DNA of 35,251 nt. Source: a virus. The stretch spans positions 1-35,251 of the IMG/VR virus record IMGVR_UViG_3300020579_000194; one strand, given 5' to 3'. A program made the position numbers and the translations under genes. The notes beneath the pieces were generated by a model. The model did no database searches. It was not told where the DNA came from and worked only from the letters and a program-made list of their open reading frames with translations. Positions 3,028 to 35,251 of this stretch are shown one piece after another (positions within the stretch are counted from its first letter, which is position 1; every line of letters starts with the position of its first letter).

Positions 3028-3816
3028 ATGAACAGCAGAAATGCATCACGGTACGAATCGCGTTACGCGCATTTGCCCGTGCTGGAAGAAAAGGAAGTGG
3101 GGCGTCCGCATTTTCAGAGTTTCCGCAAAAACCCGATCGTTGCAGGTCAGCTCGAGTATCTCGTTCAGCCGATCTACGACTTTTACGGCGTAGCGGTGGC
3201 CACGCAGGTGACGAAGCAGCAGCTCTTCGCCACGGCGATCGGCACATCGTATACCCCGGCGGGCGGCGCGGCCTTCACGAAAACGGAATACCACACCAAC
3301 CTTGTCCAGAACGGAATGTTGGACGCCCCCAAGAAATTCTTGGTCAAGGCCCCAGCAACGATCGTGCGTTCGGACGCGGCTCCTTCTGACTTGAACGCTT
3401 TCATCGGGCAGACGCAGTTTGACCTATCGATTTCCGGAAAACTTTACTGGCAATCGATTGTCAGCAAGACGCCTGCAGGTGCCGGCGGTTTCGTCAGCGG
3501 CGCAGCCGTTACCACCGCGGTGGCTACCAACCAAACTGCACTGACCTCCAGCAACGGCTGGCCGACAGCGCAGAACGTGGCATCCATCACCGATCCCATG
3601 CCTCAGATTCCCGGCTTGGATCCGATGGAGCCCATCCTCGGGCAGCTAATCGAGCAGAACCAAAACTTCGCTGTGATCCTTGATCCAACGATCACCGGCG
3701 TGGCGGCGTTCAGCACGATTGCGGCTTTGGCTGGTGCGGCTACGGGCGGCGTGCAGGGTACGGGCATCAACGCCCATGTGTATTTGGAAGGCGTGCTGGC
3801 GCGCGCGATTCTCTAA
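3028..3816 (+). CDS. Candidate major capsid protein, 262 aa
   Basis: ATG 3028 follows a GGGGTG ribosome-binding site. The protein has a basic N-terminal arm (residues 1-35), then predominantly beta-type sequence with alternating hydrophobic residues and many Gly/Pro/Thr turns. It has no signal peptide, membrane helix or enzyme motif. The size is in the range known for jelly-roll capsid proteins of tailless phages (the corticovirus PM2 capsid protein is about 269 aa). The gene is isolated by hairpins on both sides (2953-2981 and 3843-3899), as expected for a highly expressed late gene. The jelly-roll fold is inference; a small structural protein of another fold is possible. Confidence 0.6.
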   Translation: MNSRNASRYESRYAHLPVLEEKEVGRPHFQSFRKNPIVAGQLEYLVQPIYDFYGVAVATQVTKQQLFATAIGTSYTPAGGAAFTKTEYHTNLVQNGMLDAPKKFLVKAPATIVRSDAAPSDLNAFIGQTQFDLSISGKLYWQSIVSKTPAGAGGFVSGAAVTTAVATNQTALTSSNGWPTAQNVASITDPMPQIPGLDPMEPILGQLIEQNQNFAVILDPTITGVAAFSTIAALAGAATGGVQGTGINAHVYLEGVLARAIL

Positions 3817-4495: not shown

Positions 4496-5140
4496 ATGTA
4501 CGCAGGCGATGGCAACGGCAATTCGAACGCTTCCGGCAACACGCAAGCCAGCGCTGCGGGCCGCTCGGCATCCTTCCATCGGCCAATGAATCCCGGCAAA
4601 GATCCCAACGTGCTGATCAACTATCTGGCGCGCATGCTGCCGCTCGACAGCTATCAGCACGCCGTCTATCGCTTGGGCGAAAAACATCCGCCTGGCTTTG
4701 AAGATGGCTATTGCCCAAGCTGGGAAGTGGGTACGGCGTTGCTCCCCGCGCTGGCCACTACGCAGCTACGCATCAACTTCCAGCGCGAGTTTCATCTTTT
4801 TGGTTTGATGCAGACGTCGACGCAGGCCGGCGGCTTTCGCATGCAAATCTACGACGCCAAAAAGCGGTATTACACCTGGCAGGATGTGGGCCGGCGCATC
4901 ATGGGCGACTTGCAAGAGAAGCCGGGCGTGCGTCTGGCGGGCCGCGGCGTGGTGGCCGCTCTGCAATGTGGTGGCGTAACGATTGGCTGCCAGCCGTTTA
5001 TGCTGCGCGAGCCGTATTGCTTTGGCGGGCCGAATTCGCAGGCGCTGATCATCATCCAGAATCAAGACACCAGCGGCGCAAACAATGAATGCCAGGTAGC
5101 GCTTTTCGGCATGGTGCGGCGCTTTAACTGGCCAGACTAG
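4496..5140 (+). CDS. Jelly-roll-like structural protein, 214 aa
   Basis: GAGG precedes ATG 4496. A Gly/Asn/Ser-rich N-terminal arm is followed by a beta-rich core from about residue 70. The end of the core reads LREPYCFGG, then ALIIIQNQDTS, then QVALFGMVRRF: an edge strand, a central strand and a closing strand in the order common to small phage jelly-roll proteins. It may pair with the 144-aa protein at 3931, as in viruses with two small capsid proteins. Its 3' end overlaps the oppositely oriented Mom-like gene by 17 bp. Confidence 0.65.
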   Translation: MYAGDGNGNSNASGNTQASAAGRSASFHRPMNPGKDPNVLINYLARMLPLDSYQHAVYRLGEKHPPGFEDGYCPSWEVGTALLPALATTQLRINFQREFHLFGLMQTSTQAGGFRMQIYDAKKRYYTWQDVGRRIMGDLQEKPGVRLAGRGVVAALQCGGVTIGCQPFMLREPYCFGGPNSQALIIIQNQDTSGANNECQVALFGMVRRFNWPD

Positions 5141-5650: not shown

Positions 5651-6634
5651 GACGGACACGATTGCGGCTGCCACGGGATGAGCCACTATCCCGGCGGGGG
5701 GCGTTCGCTCGGTGTGTATCGCCGTCTTCGCGGGCTCGGCGCCATGTCTCCCAGCGCCGCCGCTGCGCAAGTGATCGGCTCGGATGCTCACGTCAACGCC
5801 GGCAGCAAAACGGCCATCGCCGCCGCCGCTGCGGCTGGCCACATGGTGGGCGCAGCCGGCGAAGTGGCTTACATCCCCGGTACGGTGGACTGCGCCGCCG
5901 CCACAGGCGCCCCCTCTGGCGCGCAGACAGATCTAAAGCTGGCGCAAACTTCCACAGGGCTGGCTTTGACAGGGCTGCAGCTCGCCACTTCTTCCGGCAT
6001 GCTGGCCGCGCCCATCACGATGGGCGTATCGATCGCCGTCTCGGCCATCGTGGGGCTTTTTAGCACGCTGATCAATCATCACGCGCAAGCCGTGGCCAAA
6101 GAGCAGACGGTGCTCTGCTCCGCCGTCCCCGCAGCCAATAATTATTTGAGCATCATCGCGCAAGCCGTCTCGAGCGGCTTGGCCACGCCGCAAGACGGCA
6201 TCGCCGCGCTGGAATCGCTGAAAGGCGATTTCCGCAGCGCGGTGGGCGCCATCTATAACGATTGCAACGCCGCATGCGTGATGTACATGGAGCTCGAAGC
6301 GATCTGCCTGGTGATGGAAAGCCAGCTCCAAGACATGATCAACGCCGCGAACGCGCCGGCCGCTGCGCCCGTGCAGGTAGTAGCGCCATCGCGGCCAAAC
6401 ACCACCGCGCCCGCAGCCGCCGCGCCGGCCAGCAGCTACGCACCATTTTATTCGCAGGCCACCACGCCAAGCACGCCCGTGGTGCCCAACACCGTGGCCG
6501 CGCCTACCAGCTCCGTGCCTTCGTTCACCACCGCTTCCGCCGTGCCAGCAGTCTCTTCCGCGCCTGCCACTGCAGATTGGCTTCCGATCGCCGCGATGGC
6601 GATTGGCGGCTTTTTCCTTTTGAGGAGTCTTTGA
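5630..6634 (+). CDS. Cys-rich N-terminus, C-terminal membrane anchor, Ala/Pro-rich protein, 334 aa
   Basis: GTG 5630 has GGAG about 6 nt upstream. Residues 1-16 hold a Cys/His cluster (CGCQDGHDCGCHG) that could bind metal. The middle is Ala-rich and helical, with a hydrophobic segment at about residues 120-145. A long Pro/Ala/Thr/Ser linker (240-310) leads to a C-terminal membrane helix (WLPIAAMAIGGFFLLRSL). The same design of long linker plus C-terminal helix recurs in proteins at 30722, 31891, 33157 and 33714. A virion membrane protein or spike anchor is likely by analogy; no enzyme motif is visible. Confidence 0.72.
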   Translation: MSGCGCQDGHDCGCHGMSHYPGGGRSLGVYRRLRGLGAMSPSAAAAQVIGSDAHVNAGSKTAIAAAAAAGHMVGAAGEVAYIPGTVDCAAATGAPSGAQTDLKLAQTSTGLALTGLQLATSSGMLAAPITMGVSIAVSAIVGLFSTLINHHAQAVAKEQTVLCSAVPAANNYLSIIAQAVSSGLATPQDGIAALESLKGDFRSAVGAIYNDCNAACVMYMELEAICLVMESQLQDMINAANAPAAAPVQVVAPSRPNTTAPAAAAPASSYAPFYSQATTPSTPVVPNTVAAPTSSVPSFTTASAVPAVSSAPATADWLPIAAMAIGGFFLLRSL

Positions 6635-6641
6635 GGCGTCT

Positions 6642-6812
6642 ATGACGGTCACTTGCGAAAAGTGCGGAGTGAGGTATGACGATACGTACCGTTTCACCTT
6701 CTGTCCACACGAACGATTCGAAATGAATACGACGGTCGGAAACTCCAGCGGCATCGTTGGCGTTGCGCATTCGCTTGAGGAGTTAAATCGGATGCTGAAA
6801 GAGACAAAATAA
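6642..6812 (+). CDS. Small zinc-ribbon-like protein, 56 aa
   Basis: GAGG lies 5 nt before ATG 6642, and the TAA overlaps the next ATG by one base (TAATG, 6810-6814). The sequence has a C-x2-C knuckle at the N-terminus (TCEKCG) and a CPH at about residue 21, followed by a helical C-terminus with SLEELNRMLK. It probably binds zinc. The partner is unknown; such small proteins are common in phages. Confidence 0.72.
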   Translation: MTVTCEKCGVRYDDTYRFTFCPHERFEMNTTVGNSSGIVGVAHSLEELNRMLKETK

Positions 6813-7635: not shown

Positions 7636-9309
7636 ATGCTCAAAGCAAAGAAACTTCTGTTCGCCGCGCTGCTGTCTCTGCTCGGCATGGCCTTCCCGCA
7701 GGCGGCGCGCGCGCAATTCATCGGCGATGTGGGGCTGCAGACCGTGCAGCAATCCTTCGTCACCAACACCTGCAGCGGCGCTCCGCAATTCTATTTCATC
7801 ACCAACATTGGGCAAATCGCGCACCAGGCAGCGGTGATTTCCACGGCCGCTTCGATGGTGGTGGAAATTGACGCGCAAGACGCCATCTCCACTTACAAAA
7901 TCTCGAATCCGCAAATTTCTTTTGCGAATACGCTTGGGCCTGGCACGGTCTATATCGTTCAGGCTTCCGGCTACTATCCCAAAATCATCGTCACGGTCAC
8001 GTGCTCGCCTGGTGCGCAGTACAACGTCAGCTATACCGGAGCGCAAACCGCTTTTAGTTCGCTGATCGGCCCGCCCGGGGGAACGGTAGTCAGCACCGGC
8101 GGCCAGCTCGCCGCTAATGTGCAAGGCGTGGTGGCGCAGCAGCAAAGCGGCGGCGCCGTGCTGCCGATCATCGATGGCGGCTTGCAGCTTCCTGTCAACA
8201 CGAATTTCCTTACCACCGGCATCGATAATTTCAATACCGGATCCGTGGGCGTGCCATCTGGAACGGCCGGCATCGTCACCGTGGCCACTACGCCCACGCC
8301 CACCGCCAGTGGTGAATTCGGACTAGCCTTTGAAGCCAGCCTCTCGGATGCTTCGGCCACTTCGATCGTGGCTCCCTGGGCGTGCGTGGCGGCCTTCCCT
8401 GGCGGATGTACGGGCGGCGCGCCGCAAATGTCTATGGCCTTTCTGGCCAACGTCTCTGCAGGACAAAAATTCCAGCGCACGTTTGCGAATTCCACGCCGG
8501 CTGGGCAAGATATTGCCGCGATCGTGCTGTTCTCTTCGCCGGCAACGGCCGTGCGCCAAGCCAATCTGGCCAGCGGCTCGGGCGTGGTGGCCTACACCGG
8601 CAATACGCTGGCAAACAGTTCGCTGATCGCTGCGGTGCGCTGCTCGGGCGTGGTGCCGTGCACTGTTAGCGGCGTGGCGGATACGCAGGGCGGCACGTGG
8701 AATCCGGTTACGCAGATCACCTTTAATGATGGCCAGCAGGCTTCCGGCATCGTAGTGTGGGCGAGGAGCACGCTTTCCACCGCTGCGGCCGATACCATCA
8801 CGTTCACTCTCTCGAGCGGCACAGCTGCTGGCGCGATGGCTGCGGAATTGACGGGCACCACGCCTTCCACCATTACGCAGCCAGCCATTTCCGTGCAGGC
8901 AGATCCCACGGGCGCGCAGGTTAGCCGTGCGGATGCGCAATTCCCGAATCAGTTTGTGTGCAACGTCACAATCTCGACGGCCACCACCACGCAATGCCAG
9001 GCGCCGCCCACCACGATCAATAACGTGCCTGTGCGCGCGTACGTGACGGACATTCAGGTGAACACCACCACCACGGGCACGGCGAGTGCGGTGCAACTGG
9101 TGACGGGCACGGGATCGAACTGCGGCACGGGCACGGCAAATCTTTCCGCGATCACCTATTCCACCGTCACAGCGGCCGCGCCAGCGCTAGCCAGTTTCTT
9201 GGGGATGCGCACGCCGCTGATCGCGCCGCTGCAAAGCGCCGTGTGCGTGAAGCAAACCGGCACGCCGGCCACGGCAGTGGTGGAAGTCCACGGCTTTTTT
9301 GCGCCATAG
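7636..9309 (+). CDS. Exported beta-rich surface protein with signal peptide, 557 aa
   Basis: A GGGGGG site precedes ATG 7636. Residues 1-26 are a textbook Sec signal peptide: KAKK basic end, an FAALLSLLGMAF core, and cleavage after ARA before Gln. The mature protein is rich in Thr/Ser/Gly/Ala and beta strands with paired Cys residues, as in secreted proteins. A domain at about residues 270-420 (including SGVADTQGGTWNPVTQI) resembles the N-terminal domain of the protein at 12034. The last 130 residues form another beta domain. It is probably a spike or receptor-binding protein that matures in the periplasm, which is unusual for phage structural proteins. Confidence 0.75.
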   Translation: MLKAKKLLFAALLSLLGMAFPQAARAQFIGDVGLQTVQQSFVTNTCSGAPQFYFITNIGQIAHQAAVISTAASMVVEIDAQDAISTYKISNPQISFANTLGPGTVYIVQASGYYPKIIVTVTCSPGAQYNVSYTGAQTAFSSLIGPPGGTVVSTGGQLAANVQGVVAQQQSGGAVLPIIDGGLQLPVNTNFLTTGIDNFNTGSVGVPSGTAGIVTVATTPTPTASGEFGLAFEASLSDASATSIVAPWACVAAFPGGCTGGAPQMSMAFLANVSAGQKFQRTFANSTPAGQDIAAIVLFSSPATAVRQANLASGSGVVAYTGNTLANSSLIAAVRCSGVVPCTVSGVADTQGGTWNPVTQITFNDGQQASGIVVWARSTLSTAAADTITFTLSSGTAAGAMAAELTGTTPSTITQPAISVQADPTGAQVSRADAQFPNQFVCNVTISTATTTQCQAPPTTINNVPVRAYVTDIQVNTTTTGTASAVQLVTGTGSNCGTGTANLSAITYSTVTAAAPALASFLGMRTPLIAPLQSAVCVKQTGTPATAVVEVHGFFAP

Positions 9310-13506: not shown

Positions 13507-13683
13507 ATGTCCAAAGATCCAGAGCGCTGCTGCATAGTGGATGCCCGCGGCAAACGCTGCGAAAATAAACCCATGTACAAAATCCGAATGCGGGGCTTCT
13601 GCGAGCAGCATAAGGCTTACGCTCGCCAATCCCTTGCCGTTTTTAGGTCGGATCAAGATCATCTGCTGCCAGGACACAAATAA
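13507..13683 (+). CDS. Small Cys-rich zinc-finger-like protein, 58 aa
   Basis: The frame runs from ATG 13507 to TAA 13681-13683, which overlaps the next ATG (TAATG). The sequence holds a CC pair, then RGKRCENKP, then FCEQHKAYARQ, giving a Cys/Cys/Cys/His set over about 30 residues that suits one zinc site. This pattern is common in small phage proteins. No function can be assigned. Confidence 0.7.
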   Translation: MSKDPERCCIVDARGKRCENKPMYKIRMRGFCEQHKAYARQSLAVFRSDQDHLLPGHK

Positions 13684-13973
13684 TGGCCACCGCCGTATTC
13701 AGCTTCAAAGTAGACGCAGACGGAAAAGTGACGATGGCGCACGTGTTCTTTGGCTCCACGAAGCATGCCGCGGAAGCGGAGATGCGCGGCCACGCGGAGA
13801 TTTGCCCAAAGTATGGGCCGGCGTTTCGCGCGAATGAGACAATCGAGTTTGCGCGGGAGATCGATGCGCTGCCGCCAGCCGATGGCGACGAACTGGAAGA
13901 ATGGCTGGATGCCGTCTTCGGCGAAGCGGACGAAGCCGAAGACGAAGTGATCGAGATGGAGCGCGAGGAATGA
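13683..13973 (+). CDS. Acidic-tailed small protein, 96 aa
   Basis: ATG 13683 overlaps the preceding stop. The N-terminal half is alpha/beta with one Cys; the C-terminal 45 residues are strongly acidic (ELEEWLDAVFGEADEAEDE). Bases 13820-13962 recur at 15804-15946 with two mismatches, as a headless fragment. This is the intact copy. The next gene starts in an ATGA overlap. The function is unknown; the tail resembles DNA mimics or histone-like-protein partners only in charge. Confidence 0.65.
   Translation: MATAVFSFKVDADGKVTMAHVFFGSTKHAAEAEMRGHAEICPKYGPAFRANETIEFAREIDALPPADGDELEEWLDAVFGEADEAEDEVIEMEREE
13820..13962. repeat. Mosaic repeat 1, copy a
   Basis: These 143 bp match 15804-15946 at 141 positions. 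The block encodes the C-terminal part of the acidic-tailed protein. Both copies begin at GGCGTTTCGCG, a sequence also present where mosaic repeat 3 ends (16273-16283). Confidence 0.9.
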
Positions 13974-14278
13974 AACGGACGATCACGGTTATATGGTGTT
14001 TGTTGGCGCTGGCGTGGATAGGACTGCGTTTCGGGAAGCACCTGAAATTTCAGGAGACGTGGTTCCATCATTGCCCGCTAGCATGGACTGGACCTCACGG
14101 ATCTACTCAAGAATATATTTATGTATGTTCTGAGACTGGCGAAACGATGGGGACGATCTACTACGATTCATGGTCAGAGTCTTGGCATGTGTCGGAGTTT
14201 GAAACCTTAGTCCCTATTGTCACAAATCGGCGAACTTTGGAAGAGGCTAAGAAACTCATTGAAGATAAGTTTAAGTGA
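13970..14278 (+). CDS. Signal-anchored small protein, 102 aa
   Basis: ATG 13970 overlaps the stop of the previous gene (ATGA), with GGAG 8 nt upstream. A hydrophobic N-terminal helix (residues 4-18, ITVIWCLLALAWIGL) is followed by a short polar domain with two Cys and several aromatic residues, ending in a charged helix. It is likely anchored in or exported across the inner membrane. Base composition is less GC-rich than its neighbours. In a lysis neighbourhood it could be a spanin-like part, but no family is recognised. Confidence 0.62.
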   Translation: MKRTITVIWCLLALAWIGLRFGKHLKFQETWFHHCPLAWTGPHGSTQEYIYVCSETGETMGTIYYDSWSESWHVSEFETLVPIVTNRRTLEEAKKLIEDKFK

Positions 14279-14281
14279 CGC

Positions 14282-14614
14282 ATGGGCACCGCCGCTAAAC
14301 TCGCAGTCTTCCCGGCCAACAATGAGCCGTTGAGCGCGGCGGAAGAATACGCGCTGCTCACCGGCGAAGAGATTTTCGCCGCATCGCGCGAGACTTCCCG
14401 CCAGTTCAACGGCATTGTGCTTGCCAGAGCCACGGTGATTGTGCAGACGCGGCTACGCTGCTCTTCTCCTGTGGAGCTCGCGCGGCGTATGGGCGTCGGC
14501 AAGTCCATCGTCTATCGCCACATCGCGGCGCGGCCCATTTCGGAGCATCTCTTTCACCGTTCCCTGCGCGATCTTGCTATCCTGCTGGAAGAGGAAGGCA
14601 TCCCTTGCCGGTAA
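14282..14614 (+). CDS. Putative helix-turn-helix protein, 110 aa
   Basis: ATG 14282 follows the previous stop by three bases. The C-terminal half contains SPVELARRMGVGKSIVYRHI (about residues 62-81), which fits a helix-turn-helix with a Gly in the turn and a Tyr/Arg recognition helix. The N-terminal half is helical and acidic. It may regulate the late operon or act as a small terminase-like DNA-binding subunit; the first is more likely in the absence of a large terminase. Overlaps the next gene. Confidence 0.6.
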   Translation: MGTAAKLAVFPANNEPLSAAEEYALLTGEEIFAASRETSRQFNGIVLARATVIVQTRLRCSSPVELARRMGVGKSIVYRHIAARPISEHLFHRSLRDLAILLEEEGIPCR

Positions 14615-14802
14615 AAATAAAAGCGAATCCTTTAGGTTCGTGCCCCTGTGGCCGGCAAATCTACGCCGCTGCGGAAGGATGCGTGGTTATCCATGAACTT
14701 CCACAGTGCGAAAAGTTTATCGAGTTAGATCCTTATGAGTTTCTAAGGTACGTGCGGCGCTCGCGCGGCATCCCTGATGCCGCCGTGGAGCATGTCCAGT
14801 GA
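14605..14802 (+). CDS. Small Cys-containing protein, 65 aa
   Basis: A TTG at 14605 overlaps the upstream frame and the stop overlaps the next start as GTGA. The N-terminus has SCPCGRQIY and further Cys residues at about 25 and 35, so a zinc ribbon is possible. The C-terminus is basic and helical (FLRYVRRSRG). Function unknown. Confidence 0.58.
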   Translation: MPVKIKANPLGSCPCGRQIYAAAEGCVVIHELPQCEKFIELDPYEFLRYVRRSRGIPDAAVEHVQ

Positions 14803-15371
14803 ACCTTTCGCCAGCGCAGATCGCGCAGTACGCCGCCGCCGCCGGCTTCACCGGCAACGATCTGCTTACGGCCGTGGACATTGCGCTGGCCGAAAGCAAT
14901 GGTGGCAATCCAAACGCCTATTTTAATGAATCGCAAGACGTGCCAGGACGCTACGGCCGCACAAGCGCCAACGATGGGAAAGGATCGTATGGGCTCTGGC
15001 AGATTTACCTGGCAGCTCATCCGGAGTTTGCCGGCGAGAATCTGGCCGATCCGCAAACCAACGCCAACGCCGCGTATTCGATTTATGCCATCGCCGGCGG
15101 CTTCACGCCGTGGAGCACCTACACCAGCGGCGAATATGGGATGTACGAATCGCCGGCAGTGCTGGCCGCCGTGGCGGCGTTTGCTCCCAGCGTGCAACCT
15201 GCCAACGTGCAACCATTAACGCTGGATGCGTCGACGGGCCAGCCCATCGTTTCTCCTGCTGAAATTGCGGCAGGGGCATACCTGCCGCCGGCCAGCCCAT
15301 CCGTAACCGATGTGCTGCTGTGGGGCGGCCTCGCCGTTGGAACTCTGTGGCTTCTCAGCGAGGTAATGTGA
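14799..15371 (+). CDS. Lytic transglycosylase 1, membrane-anchored, 190 aa
   Basis: GTG 14799 overlaps the previous stop. The domain is lysozyme-like/SLT: catalytic Glu near residue 32 in IALAESNGG, then GSYGLWQIY (62-70), a NANAAYSIY helix and FTPWSTY. It would cleave peptidoglycan glycan strands, at virion entry or exit. A linker (about 115-170) leads to a C-terminal membrane helix (VLLWGGLAVGTLWLLSEV), so the enzyme is likely fixed in a membrane. PRD1-type phages carry a virion transglycosylase used for entry, which is a good analogy. The last 33 bases are in repeat 2 and recur at 16142, where they end another gene in a different frame. Confidence 0.85.
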   Translation: MNLSPAQIAQYAAAAGFTGNDLLTAVDIALAESNGGNPNAYFNESQDVPGRYGRTSANDGKGSYGLWQIYLAAHPEFAGENLADPQTNANAAYSIYAIAGGFTPWSTYTSGEYGMYESPAVLAAVAAFAPSVQPANVQPLTLDASTGQPIVSPAEIAAGAYLPPASPSVTDVLLWGGLAVGTLWLLSEVM

Positions 15372-15407
15372 TGCAAGCACGAATCGAGCAAGGTTGCCTT
15401 AAACTAA
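15339..15407. repeat. Mosaic repeat 2, copy a
   Basis: These 69 bp are identical to 16142-16210. The block spans the end of transglycosylase 1 and the first 12 codons of the gene at 15371. Confidence 0.92.
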
Positions 15408-15559
15408 AGGCGGATACGGACGAAGAAAAACAGATCCTGCGGAAATTCTATGACTCTTTCTTCGCCACGAAGGACGGGCTTGAAACCGATTTCGGTATCA
15501 GCGATGAAAACGATGAGACGTTTTTTCTCTTCATCCGCCCAGCGCCTAAAGTGAATTGA
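15371..15559 (+). CDS. Small acidic protein, 62 aa
   Basis: ATG 15371 shares a base with the TGA of the transglycosylase. The product is polar and acidic with aromatic clusters (ILRKFYDSFFATKDG, ETFFLFIRP). No motif is recognised. The first 12 codons recur at 16174, where they are fused in frame to part of the FtsK-gamma-like gene. Confidence 0.6.
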   Translation: MQARIEQGCLKLKADTDEEKQILRKFYDSFFATKDGLETDFGISDENDETFFLFIRPAPKVN

Positions 15560-15563
15560 GGGC

Positions 15564-15821
15564 TTGACACGCAGGTTTCGCGGCAAGCGAACACTTGACA
15601 TTGGCGAAGTTTGGTGTTTATCTCTCTCGCAAATGGCTGCCGAACTCATCGAAGAGAACGAAGCGCTGTACCAACTCGCCGTGCTTCTAGTTCGTTCCAT
15701 GAAACGCCCCACCGTTGTTTCCATCCAGCGTAAATTTGAGATAGGCTACGGGCGAGCGATGAACATCATTGACGTGATGATTGAAAAAGGCGATTGGCCA
15801 GCAGGCGTTTCGCGCGAATGA
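15564..15821 (+). CDS. Stand-alone FtsK gamma-like DNA-binding protein, 85 aa
   Basis: The frame opens with TTG 15564; ATG 15633 is an alternative start. Residues 32-80 match the winged-helix gamma domain of FtsK: LYQLAVLLVRSMKRPT, then VSIQRKFEIGYGRA with the Q-R-x-F-x-I-G-Y-x-R-A signature, then NIIDVMIEKGDW. In FtsK this domain reads polar octamers (KOPS) and loads the motor on DNA. Here it is separate from any ATPase, while a HerA/FtsK-like ATPase is encoded at 22104. The C-terminus (GVSRE) is created by the junction with mosaic repeat 1, so the original tail may be lost. Confidence 0.72.
   Translation: MTRRFRGKRTLDIGEVWCLSLSQMAAELIEENEALYQLAVLLVRSMKRPTVVSIQRKFEIGYGRAMNIIDVMIEKGDWPAGVSRE
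15741..15814. repeat. Mosaic repeat 3, copy a
   Basis: These 74 bp, encoding the recognition half of the FtsK gamma-like domain, are identical to 16210-16283. The last 11 bp overlap the start of repeat 1 copy b. Confidence 0.92.
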
Positions 15822-15954
15822 GACAATCGAGTTTGCACGGGAGATCGATGCGCTGCCGCCAGCCGATGGCGACGAACTGGAAGAGTGGCTGGATGCCGTC
15901 TTCGGCGAAGCGGACGAAGCCGAAGACGAAGTGATCGAGATGGAGCCTGAATGA
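15804..15954 (+). pseudogene. Headless fragment of the acidic-tailed gene (repeat 1, copy b)
   Basis: Bases 15804-15946 copy 13820-13962 with two mismatches. The reading frame of the intact gene continues to a TGA at 15952-15954 but has no start, since the upstream sequence belongs to the FtsK gamma-like gene in another frame. Internal translation is possible but unsupported. The fragment end overlaps the next start (ATGATGG), as at the intact copy. Confidence 0.75.
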
Positions 15955-16169
15955 TGGACAAGCCTAGCAGCACGATTATTTTTGAAGGCACGCTTCAAAA
16001 AGACATCCAGAATGGTGAAGTGATTGTTCTAGGAGTCTTACTCTACCGACCGAAGGAAGAACAGCTTAACGTAGAAACGCCAATAGGGCGTGCCAATGAA
16101 ACGCTCGCGATGCTGCATAAGTTTGGGATACACATGCAGAAGGAACTCTGTGGCTTCTCAGCGAGGTAA
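15951..16169 (+). CDS. Small protein with recombined 3' end, 72 aa
   Basis: The start ATG 15951 (or 15954) overlaps the stop of the fragment. The body is alpha/beta with no recognised motif. The last eight residues (ELCGFSAR) are encoded by mosaic repeat 2, which in its other copy encodes the membrane tail of transglycosylase 1 in a different frame. The gene has therefore probably lost its own 3' end. Function unknown. Confidence 0.5.
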   Translation: MMDKPSSTIIFEGTLQKDIQNGEVIVLGVLLYRPKEEQLNVETPIGRANETLAMLHKFGIHMQKELCGFSAR

Positions 16170-16210
16170 TGTGATGCAAGCACGAATCGAGCAAGGTTGC
16201 CTTAAACTAA
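16142..16210. repeat. Mosaic repeat 2, copy b
   Basis: Identical to 15339-15407 and joined directly to mosaic repeat 3 copy b at base 16210. Relative to the first locus, this equals a 334-bp deletion. Confidence 0.92.
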
Positions 16211-16308
16211 TAGGCTACGGGCGAGCGATGAACATCATTGACGTGATGATTGAAAAAGGCGATTGGCCAGCAGGCGTTTCGCGTCCCGGTTGCGCGAGGA
16301 TCGCTTGA
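16174..16308 (+). CDS. In-frame fusion ORF: start of the 15371 gene plus FtsK gamma recognition segment, 44 aa
   Basis: ATG 16174 is the copied start of the 62-aa gene. After 12 codons the frame passes into the copied FtsK gamma segment (IGYGRAMNIIDVMIEKGDW) without a shift, then ends after a new tail. The stop overlaps the TTG of transglycosylase 2 (TTGA). Whether this is expressed or a recombination scar cannot be told from sequence. Confidence 0.4.
   Translation: MQARIEQGCLKLIGYGRAMNIIDVMIEKGDWPAGVSRPGCARIA
16210..16283. repeat. Mosaic repeat 3, copy b
   Basis: Identical to 15741-15814. It ends at GGCGTTTCGCG, after which the sequence runs into the leader of transglycosylase 2 instead of repeat 1. 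Confidence 0.92.
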
Positions 16309-16898
16309 CAGACCTCGAGCTGATGCAGTCCATCCAGACGAAATGGGGCGGCGCGATCGCCGAGGCGTGCAGCACGTCCAGCGTGCCGGCGGCCTTTCTG
16401 GCGGCGCTGATTGCCAATGAGACGGGCGGAAACTCCAATGCAAAACGATTCGAAAAAGGCGTGCTTGCTGCTCTCTGGGAAGTACTTCTGGGACGCAAAG
16501 AGGCTTACGGCAGCATCCAACGAATCGTGCTGGTCGGATACGTCGCCAATGTTGCCGTGCCCGCCGTCAACGCCCCCGCAAACCTTCCCGCTGATGCCTT
16601 CCAGCGTGTTGATGCTTTGGCGACAAGCTGGGGACTTACCCAGATCATGGGCTATCACATCCTCGAATCGAGCGCGCCCGTAAAGACGATCGCTGCGCTG
16701 CAAGATCCCGCGATGCACCTGGCGATGGCGCTGCGCCTGCTGGCGCAGTTTGCCGCGCAGTTTCAGCTCGACGTCACTAAAGATTTTAGCGCGATGCTGC
16801 ATTGCTGGAACGCCGGCAGCCCCAGCGCGGCCACCTTCGATCCCAACTACGTCCCCAATGCGATGCGGCGGATGGATCTGTGGGCTAGCCTGCCGTGA
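16305..16898 (+). CDS. Lytic transglycosylase 2, 197 aa
   Basis: I chose TTG 16305 because GAGGA lies 4 nt upstream and the TTGA overlaps the preceding stop; ATG 16323 is an alternative. The protein is SLT/lysozyme-like: catalytic Glu near residue 39 in LIANETGG, SWGLTQIMG (108-116), and a MLHCWNAG helix near the end. It lacks a signal peptide and membrane helix, unlike transglycosylase 1, so it is likely the endolysin or a virion-packaged enzyme. Downstream genes encode small membrane proteins, as expected for a lysis cassette. Its 5' leader comes from a recombined block. Confidence 0.82.
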   Translation: MTDLELMQSIQTKWGGAIAEACSTSSVPAAFLAALIANETGGNSNAKRFEKGVLAALWEVLLGRKEAYGSIQRIVLVGYVANVAVPAVNAPANLPADAFQRVDALATSWGLTQIMGYHILESSAPVKTIAALQDPAMHLAMALRLLAQFAAQFQLDVTKDFSAMLHCWNAGSPSAATFDPNYVPNAMRRMDLWASLP

Positions 16899-19916: not shown

Positions 19917-20374
19917 GACGCATCCCAATTCCACAGCAAGCGATTCCCTTTTGCGGGGATGGGCGTGTCAAATACTTCGACCATTTCAAGACTCCATGCG
20001 TAGCGCCCATCTTCATAGTTGCCAAAGATTTGCTCACGCATCGGCAGTTCATCCCGCTGCATACACGCGGTTTCGCAAATATCAACTAGGCGAACGATAC
20101 AGAGAATCTTCCCGTAAGGGAGTGCCTGTAAAATATCATCAACACGCTTTCCTGTGCGATGATCGCGATCTCGCGGTACGCAAAACACGTCTGCAAGCTC
20201 ATCGCGGAATGGATCAGTGTGAGCGGAAGCCCCGAGCCACTTAGGCGGCCGCTTCATAGTTGAATGAATTGCAAGCTGTCCGCGATAGTCCGTTTTCCAG
20301 CATCGCGTCTCTATTCGCTTCTCTCCCATCGCTACCAGAGAAGCCCACGGCTGCCACAGTGATAGGGCTTTCAT
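19913..20374 (-). CDS. ASCH-domain protein, 153 aa
   Basis: The start ATG 20374 overlaps the upstream stop (ATGA). The N-terminus MKALSLWQPWASLVAMGEKR, followed by IETRCWKT and YRGQLAIH, is the typical ASCH/PUA-like beginning, with the later strand KILCIVRLVDI. ASCH domains bind RNA or modified nucleosides and some act as amidohydrolases. Phages often carry one. The exact substrate cannot be read from sequence. Confidence 0.82.
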   Translation of the reverse strand: MKALSLWQPWASLVAMGEKRIETRCWKTDYRGQLAIHSTMKRPPKWLGASAHTDPFRDELADVFCVPRDRDHRTGKRVDDILQALPYGKILCIVRLVDICETACMQRDELPMREQIFGNYEDGRYAWSLEMVEVFDTPIPAKGNRLLWNWDAS

Positions 20375-30721: not shown

Positions 30722-31894
30722 ATGCCGATCGCGTTTCCGCAGCAGCCGCTTTATCGAGTGCCGCTGATGGGCGGCGACGCCGGCGTTTCCCAAACAATCG
30801 ATCAGATGCGCAGCTTGGTGAACGAAGCGATCGCCGATCCTTCCATCCTTCGCATCGCCAAAGATATCGTGCGCGGCGTCCCCGCCTTTGACGATACTTC
30901 GGAAGCGGAAGCGCTCTACAATTGGGTGCGTAACAACATCCGTTTCACGAAAGATCCCGTCAACAAAGAGACTCTCTATCCGCCTTCGGAGCTGCTGCAG
31001 ATTCGCGCCGGCGATTGCGACGATATCTCCATGCTGCTCGGCACGCTGCTGATGGCCATCGGCTATCCCGCGCGGCTGATGACGGTGGCCGCGAACGGCG
31101 ACGAATTTTCGCACGTCTACGTGGAAGGCCAGATCAATGGCCAATGGATTCCTATGGATCCCGCGCGCAGCGATTCGCAATTCGGAGTTGCGCCGCCATC
31201 CTACACACGCGCGCGCTGGTGGAGCCTTTCGGATTCTTCGCAGGGCGATCTGCCGGGGGCTTTTTCTGGATATCGGTCCCGTGGCGGGACGCTCGGGCAC
31301 TATCAGCGTTTCAAATCGCATGTGAGCGGCATGGGAAGCTATGGCAGCGTGGCTCGCCATCGCACCATGATGGGGCGGCACCGCACGATGGCTTTCATCG
31401 GAACGCCGCCGGATCAAAGCGCCGTCAACGATCTCACGAACAACGGCTATAATCCCGCCACCATAAACCAACTGATCGCGATGGGCGCCAGCAACGAACA
31501 ACTGCAAGCGCTGCCTTTCCCCGCCGATCCCGCCAGCATGCAAGCGGCGGTAAACGCGCTTGCCGCGCAGCTTGGCGGCACAACGGCCGCGCCTGCATCG
31601 TCTTCGCCAGCGGCCACCGCGCCCGCTTCTGGACAAATCACTTCGTCCACGATCGCCACCGTGGATCAAGGCATCGCGGATATTATTCGCGCGGCCTCGG
31701 GCCAGCCTGCCAGCCCGTTTAGTTACACTTCCGGACCTTACGCTTCTTTCCAGACGGCGTATTCGCCAGGCGCCGCGCCGTCTGCAGGCTATCCCGCCGC
31801 AGTAACGCCAGGCGTTTCCGTAACCGGCAGCTCAAACTGGATTTTGATCGCCGCGATTGGGCTCGGCGCATTGATGCTGATGAGGCGAAGATGA
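30722..31894 (+). CDS. Transglutaminase-like protein with C-terminal membrane anchor, 390 aa
   Basis: First gene of the rightward unit, ATG 30722. Residues 60-150 carry a transglutaminase/cysteine-protease-like domain with the complete triad: Cys99 in RAGDCDD, His131 in FSHVYVE, Asp146 in IPMDPAR. It may cut or cross-link virion proteins, or act on a peptidoglycan peptide. A Gly/Arg/Met-rich segment (about 190-225), a helical stretch and a Pro/Ala/Ser linker lead to a C-terminal membrane helix ending MLMRRR. Start and family are clear; the substrate is not. Overlaps the next gene as ATGA. Confidence 0.78.
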   Translation: MPIAFPQQPLYRVPLMGGDAGVSQTIDQMRSLVNEAIADPSILRIAKDIVRGVPAFDDTSEAEALYNWVRNNIRFTKDPVNKETLYPPSELLQIRAGDCDDISMLLGTLLMAIGYPARLMTVAANGDEFSHVYVEGQINGQWIPMDPARSDSQFGVAPPSYTRARWWSLSDSSQGDLPGAFSGYRSRGGTLGHYQRFKSHVSGMGSYGSVARHRTMMGRHRTMAFIGTPPDQSAVNDLTNNGYNPATINQLIAMGASNEQLQALPFPADPASMQAAVNALAAQLGGTTAAPASSSPAATAPASGQITSSTIATVDQGIADIIRAASGQPASPFSYTSGPYASFQTAYSPGAAPSAGYPAAVTPGVSVTGSSNWILIAAIGLGALMLMRRR

Positions 31895-34724: not shown

Positions 34725-35251
34725 AAGCGACGTATGGAACATACGAAGTCAAAGGCGGAGTGCAGGAAGCATCCGATGGAGCGATTCTCATCGCGTGTCC
34801 AGGCTGCGGAAATTGCTACAGCCTGCGGAATCCGCCATTCACTTTCAATCGTGAAACGATTTCCATCGGGCCAGCAAGCATCAAGCTGCTCAATTGTGGC
34901 TGGCACGGATACCTGACGAACGGGGACTGGATTACGTCACCAGATTCAGGCTGCGGGAAATTATTGGCGATGGCGAGAGAGGGGCGCAAAGTGGCAAGAG
35001 AAGATTTGAAGATTGGCGATCACGTCAGCTTTTTGCGGATGAGCAACAAAGCCATCCGCCTCACTGGCACCATCGCGAAGATTCACGATGATGCGCCGAT
35101 CGTAGATATCGCGCTCGACAATCACCCAGCCGACAGCATAGACAACGCGCACGTGGACGATGTGACGGTGATCGATCCCGTTGCAGCCGAAACCGCGTCG
35201 CCGGCGCTCGAGGCGAATCTTGAAAAACTCGGCGAGGCGCATGAAGGGAAC
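34721..35251 (+). CDS. DUF6527-like protein, N-terminal part (continues at base 132-158)
   Basis: GTG 34721 overlaps the preceding stop as GTGA. The protein has CPGCGNCYSL near residues 26-35 and NCGWHGYLTNGDW near 61-73, the two metal-site motifs of the DUF6527 family as I remember it. This is followed by a basic segment and a small beta-rich domain (about 86-135) ending in the acidic tail at the start of the window. The total is about 185 aa once the circle is closed. DUF6527 proteins are common in phages but have no known function. Confidence 0.75.
   Translation, partial: MKATYGTYEVKGGVQEASDGAILIACPGCGNCYSLRNPPFTFNRETISIGPASIKLLNCGWHGYLTNGDWITSPDSGCGKLLAMAREGRKVAREDLKIGDHVSFLRMSNKAIRLTGTIAKIHDDAPIVDIALDNHPADSIDNAHVDDVTVIDPVAAETASPALEANLEKLGEAHEGN
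35126..35251. repeat. Terminal direct repeat, right copy (circular genome overlap)
   Basis: Identical to bases 6-131. See the left copy for interpretation. Confidence 0.93.

Follow-up and report, generated by a model that had tools for sequence, protein, structure and literature searches.

A probable recombination scar of duplicated gene pieces between two lysozyme-like genes of a soil phage

Gene organization of the locus

The window, that is, the whole 35,251-bp stretch of DNA analyzed here, carries a mosaic of duplicated gene pieces. It is situated between two lysozyme-like genes (SLT_3 and SLT) of a ~35-kb soil phage. Three IMG/VR records, 3300044946_000342, 3300020580_000040 and 3300020581_000137, serve as relatives for comparison. 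In the following list, R1, R2 and R3 are the blocks that occur twice (copies a and b), R1' is the headless R1 fragment of the second copy, and D is the ORF that follows it; (+) denotes the plus strand.

13683..13973 (+): R1 gene, 96 aa, no assigned function; intact native copy including R1a (13820-13962); single-copy and syntenic in the three relatives
13970..14278 (+): slot 1 cargo gene; start in an ATGA overlap with the R1 stop; GC 0.46 vs 0.58 for the genome
14799..15371 (+): SLT_3 lysozyme-like gene (Pfam PF18896, E=3.7e-19), 3' end inside R2a; kept in all three relatives
15339..15407 (+): R2a, comprising the SLT_3 tail, a Shine-Dalgarno-like GAGG, ATG and the first 12 codons of the R2 gene (repeat and ORF analysis)
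15371..15559 (+): R2 gene, starting in R2a
15594..15632 (+): promoter-like element TTGACA-N17-18-GTGTTTATCTC, also in two relatives, before a different gene in each
15633..15821 (+): FtsK-gamma-domain ORF (Pfam PF09397, E=6.3e-11); last codons (RE*) from the R1b junction
15741..15814 (+): R3a (repeat comparison)
15804..15946 (+): R1b, 3' half of R1 only (headless), with its own 3' end (EMEPE*); two synonymous differences from R1a
15815..16283 (+): insert (R1' remainder, D, R2b, R3b), identified from the flanking R3 direct repeat, absence from the relatives and the empty-site reading
15951..16169 (+): D ORF, 72 codons; runs through a unique segment (15947-16141) into R2b, which supplies its end
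16142..16210 (+): R2b, ribosome-binding site and start of the R2 gene (repeat and ORF analysis)
16174..16308 (+): fusion ORF, in frame, 44 aa; 12 R2-gene codons plus the C-terminal half of FtsK-gamma (PF09397 half-domain, E=0.006)
16210..16283 (+): R3b (repeat comparison)
16305..16898 (+): SLT/lysozyme-like gene 3' of the insert (weak Pfam SLT match, E=0.002); conserved at 96%, 76% and 55% in the relatives, in the order given above

Four backbone genes, namely R1, g14282, SLT_3 and SLT, are kept in all three relatives and delimit two cargo slots: slot 1 between R1 and g14282, and slot 2 between SLT_3 and SLT. Slot 2 of the window is occupied by the R2 and FtsK-gamma genes, with the conserved promoter-like element between them. 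The GC content of the window's cargo genes is 0.46-0.52, compared with 0.60-0.61 in the backbone genes measured. The FtsK-gamma ORF retains its Pfam-matched part (residues 8-53), and only its last codons are altered by the insert; a protein search with it returned just one distant match, in a 23.9-kb contig. R2a is regarded as native because the last residues of SLT_3 (LWLLSEVM) fit the pattern of the relatives (LWIYSEAA in 3300044946_000342, and LWLFNET), although DNA identity to 3300044946_000342 ends there. The start of R2a was therefore rejected as the mark of a foreign SLT_3 3' end.

The promoter-like element recurs in 3300044946_000342 (6724-6769) and 3300020580_000040 (~3221-3261), both given as positions of the stretches examined. 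Its end lies ~9 bases upstream of the start codon, a spacing that suggests a leaderless transcript. Consensus scans for promoters and terminators remained at chance level.

Repeat blocks and the 469-bp insert

The R1 pair (13820-13962 and 15804-15946) extends over 143 bp and differs only at 13853 (G/A) and 13901 (A/G), leaving exact runs of 33, 47 and 61 bp; both mismatches are at third codon positions and are synonymous. The R2 pair (15339-15407 and 16142-16210) is identical at 69/69 positions, and the R3 pair (15741-15814 and 16210-16283) at 74/74. Self-BLAST E-values of 4e-68, 7e-31 and 4e-33 for R1, R2 and R3, with all three pairs inside 2.5 kb, place them far beyond chance, and the only other repeat pair of such size in the window is the overlap of the contig ends (6-131 = 35126-35251). 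The first-pass annotation had reported these three blocks, and their sizes, positions and mismatches are correct to the base. The two joins that it described, R3a into R1b and R2b into R3b, are likewise present (with 11 bp and 1 bp in common), as are the headless fragment, the gene with a foreign 3' end (15633-15821) and the in-frame fusion ORF (16174-16308).

At the R3a/R1b join, the 11-bp microhomology GGCGTTTCGCG is common to the end of R3 and the R1 gene. The end of R3 (15814) meets the equivalent of R1 position 13831, and thus downstream sequence is connected to upstream sequence in the same orientation. The single base common to R2b and R3b is position 16210, and at the D/R2b and R2b/R3b junctions hardly any microhomology, if any, can be detected. 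Three points go beyond the first-pass annotation: the blocks follow the order of the genome, together they can be taken as a single 469-bp insert (15815-16283), and the window ends overlap. The insert is flanked by R3 as a direct repeat and located near the 3' end of the small FtsK-gamma-domain gene, immediately before the SLT gene. From left to right the insert contains R1', D, R2 and R3. Because these pieces follow genome order, the insert is interpreted as the remainder of a second R1-to-FtsK-gamma copy. This second copy is colinear with the first except for deletions between D and R2 and from R2 to R3 (15408-15740), and D is missing from the first copy. When the insert is removed in silico, an open 68-codon FtsK-gamma ORF ending in ...VSRPGCARIA* is obtained, and its TGA overlaps the TTG start of SLT.

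Within the insert, the only start codon available to R1' is a poor one, a TTG at 15781 that would give 57 aa, and its C-terminus is EMEPE, compared with EMEREE in the R1 gene. D begins in an ATGA overlap with the R1' stop, as do the slot-1 genes of the window and 3300044946_000342 with respect to R1, and its GC content of 0.456 is low, like that of cargo genes. It is probably a foreign slot-1 gene truncated at its 3' end. The fusion ORF has the R2 ribosome-binding site upstream, and being in frame corresponds to about a one-in-three chance. A chain of stop/start contacts leads into SLT: the R1b stop and D start share ATGA, the D stop lies 4 nt before the fusion start, and the stop of the fusion (TGA) overlaps the SLT start as TTGA. 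It is a long shot that R2b acts as a portable ribosome-binding/start block keeping translation coupled to the lysozyme-like gene by way of the fusion ORF with its half FtsK-gamma domain, in which case the scar would now be functional, with a new expressed small protein and rewired lysis-gene timing.

Genome completeness and relatives

The first 5 bases of the window are unmatched and are followed by an exact 126-bp overlap with its end; in the closest relative, 3300044946_000342, the terminal overlap is exactly 127 bp. From these overlap lengths, the window record, which is classed as linear, appears to be effectively circular and complete, the relatives also appear complete or near-complete, and the assembly k would have been near 127. 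The window is circularly permuted with respect to the relatives; the record of 3300044946_000342 begins near window position 9180, and the first 9 kb of the window match the opposite end of that record.

The relatives cover a range of distances. Aligned blocks of 3300044946_000342 (35,308 bp) mostly have ~95% DNA identity, 3300020580_000040 (35,073 bp) has DNA identity of about 72-90%, summarized as ~77%, and 3300020581_000137 (34,124 bp) has protein identity of 43-59% over the genes compared. The R1 protein is 100%, 66% and 59% identical in these three genomes, respectively. In all of them R1 is single and the insert is absent; none of them carries the R2 or the FtsK-gamma cargo gene, and the exact empty site is therefore not represented among them. 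A search of these related genomes for the same junctions, as had been proposed in the first-pass annotation, found them in none of the three. Each relative has different small genes in the two slots, or none in the case of 3300020581_000137. The slot 1 gene of the window has unrelated replacements in 3300044946_000342 and 3300020580_000040 and is missing in 3300020581_000137. Hypervariability in this region concerns which genes occupy the two cargo slots. In addition, the stretch of 3300020581_000137 examined contains a diverged duplication (4608-5036 and 6059-6463, 81-85%, ~1.45 kb apart) and, at its end, a short-period tandem repeat (20092-20161).

Origin of the mosaic

The mosaic is, with moderate confidence, a real recombination scar produced by sibling exchange and internal deletions in a complete, circularly permuted ~35.2-kb phage genome. 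In a cell infected by this phage and a sibling, an unequal illegitimate exchange would have joined the R3 end of the FtsK-gamma gene to the sibling's R1 gene at the 11-mer. The product would have been a second, tandemly arranged R1-to-FtsK-gamma interval, ~2 kb long, with D as the slot-1 gene contributed by the sibling. Most of this redundant copy would then have been lost, presumably later, through two deletions inside it (D to R2 and R2 to R3), leaving +469 bp. Two forward template switches within the same event would be an equivalent route. The retained part would keep the stop/start overlap chain into the lysozyme-like gene, where the coupled frames may have been subject to selection. The length of the window is within the range of the relatives (34.1-35.3 kb), in keeping with a capsid size limit that may have favored the deletions.

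R1'-D has the appearance of DNA from a sibling phage whose slot-1 gene was a different one, because the C-terminus of R1' is sensible, D occupies the slot-1 ATGA position, and its GC content is cargo-like. The synonymous R1 mismatches, together with the presence of D at the relatives' cargo site after R1, suggest that the second copy came from a sibling. The weight of the synonymous differences is modest, since two neutral transitions in the R1b stretch would both be synonymous with a chance of about 12%. Searches for the D protein in viral contigs, the relatives and eight Acidobacteria MAGs returned nothing, and an R3 27-mer and the R1b-D boundary had no match in viral contigs; in both cases, records close to the window may be left out of the collections. 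Neither a second genome with the same junctions nor a sibling genome with R1'-D was found in the viral contig searches.

The first-pass annotation had offered two explanations, a microhomology-driven shuffling hot spot and an assembly tangle of co-existing variants. At one junction, microhomology (11 bp) is indeed present. The idea of a hot spot finds no support, however, because there is a single insert in a single genome and the relatives do not have the same junctions. Co-existing variants are retained in altered form, as the R1b-D piece looks like a sibling-phage allele; as the cause of an assembly tangle, they are weakened by the properties of the repeats considered below.

Alternative explanations

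An assembly chimera is not very likely. According to this explanation, two co-existing strains were fused by overlap-based gap closing at GGCGTTTCGCG, the R3a/R1b junction occurs in no single molecule, and the remainder comes from a sibling deletion variant with the order R1'-D-R2-R3-SLT. Gap closing on overlaps as short as 11 bp may occur in some assemblers, and one join is exactly such an overlap. R1b also differs from R1a in an allele-like manner, D resembles an alternative slot-1 gene, and the assembly tips are imperfect, because the contig ends show small discrepancies (the 5 unmatched bases before the 126-bp overlap). However, all exact repeats (61 bp for the longest R1 run, 69 bp and 74 bp) are below the implied k of ~127; a de Bruijn tangle, which would need repeats of assembly k-mer length or longer and for which 0-1-bp junctions are impossible, is therefore improbable. 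Gap closing cannot create 0-1-bp joins either, and the R2b/R3b join with its 1-bp overlap must have existed in the reads. Moreover, a join exactly at the end of R3 requires two graph tips to stop by chance at a common 11-mer, despite the available path from R3 to SLT.

A purely intragenomic origin, which is considered quite unlikely, assumes that a tandem duplication arose within a single lineage and that its second copy then decayed, with D as the ancestral slot-1 gene that was later replaced in the first copy. It is in line with the identity of the R2 and R3 copies and with the colinearity, and its first step proceeds without a sibling phage. Nevertheless, it fits poorly with two synonymous changes in R1b and none in R2b or R3b, and the absence of D from the first copy demands an extra slot 1 replacement, thus more steps than sibling exchange.

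Rearrangement by a transposon, an integron-like cassette, a diversity-generating retroelement or a similar defined mobile or programmed element can be almost completely dismissed. Direct repeats do surround the insert and the cargo slots are variable, but the insert has no recombinase, transposase or reverse transcriptase ORF, and recombinase genes, terminal inverted repeats and attachment sites are missing from it and from the surrounding region. The repeats derive from three different genes, and the junctions have no second copy elsewhere. On these grounds a transposon was rejected, as was a diversity-generating retroelement, the differences not being adenine-specific; tandem-repeat expansion was also rejected.

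Comparison with known systems

The scar is probably of a known kind, phage mosaicism by short-homology recombination, and a new mechanism is not needed; it exemplifies the usual shuffling of phage genes and not a new type of element. Phage recombinases such as lambda Red and Rad52-like proteins act with low fidelity on diverged or very short homologies (PMC2327257, PMC3945230). As in phage mosaicism generally, short or diverged homology would here have joined related phages, and cargo switches at boundaries between conserved genes (PMC2327257, PMC3945230). In contrast to a clean module swap, the unequal join truncated and fused genes, and no recombinase is recognized (PMC2327257, PMC3945230). 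This holds for the ORFs scanned, most of whose proteins match nothing.

At the tifA locus of phage T4, segmental amplification through short homology is followed by deletions that restore a packageable genome size (PMC9391042). The sequence of events proposed here is similar in that recombination at short homologies leads to tandem duplication and compensating deletions (PMC9391042). It differs in that a single collapsed copy of ~0.5 kb is present, the copy contains foreign DNA, and the phage is uncultured; an amplification benefit and headful packaging would be hypothetical for the window phage (PMC9391042). The FtsK-gamma domain has a parallel in Bacillus phages such as Sam46 and Sam112, which have an unusual small terminase and in which such a domain is reported (PMC8190038). 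Both cases involve a small phage protein with an FtsK-gamma winged-helix domain, but in the window it is encoded by a cargo gene that is missing from the three relatives and has no recognized terminase nearby, and nothing points to a terminase role (PMC8190038).

If real, the scar captures phage module exchange at a messy intermediate stage, with an unequal join and partial clean-up, a stage that normally leaves no trace. It would also show that genes come and go at the two cargo slots next to the lysozyme-like genes.

Phage group and probable host

If the scar is real, this snapshot comes from an almost unknown phage group with probable Acidobacteria hosts. The host is probably an acidobacterium, because relatives of the SLT protein are found in Acidobacteria/Terriglobia MAGs; the DNA examined around these relatives contains no R1, D, R2 or FtsK-gamma neighbors. 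Among named phages, there was no DNA match to the window and none for the one large protein searched there. The four related 34-35 kb genomes may represent an undescribed phage group of Acidobacteria. In PHROG and Pfam scans, most of the large ORFs scanned, probably including structural genes, had no family match. A transglutaminase-core protein is encoded at 30722-31891 (PF01841, E=8.7e-15).
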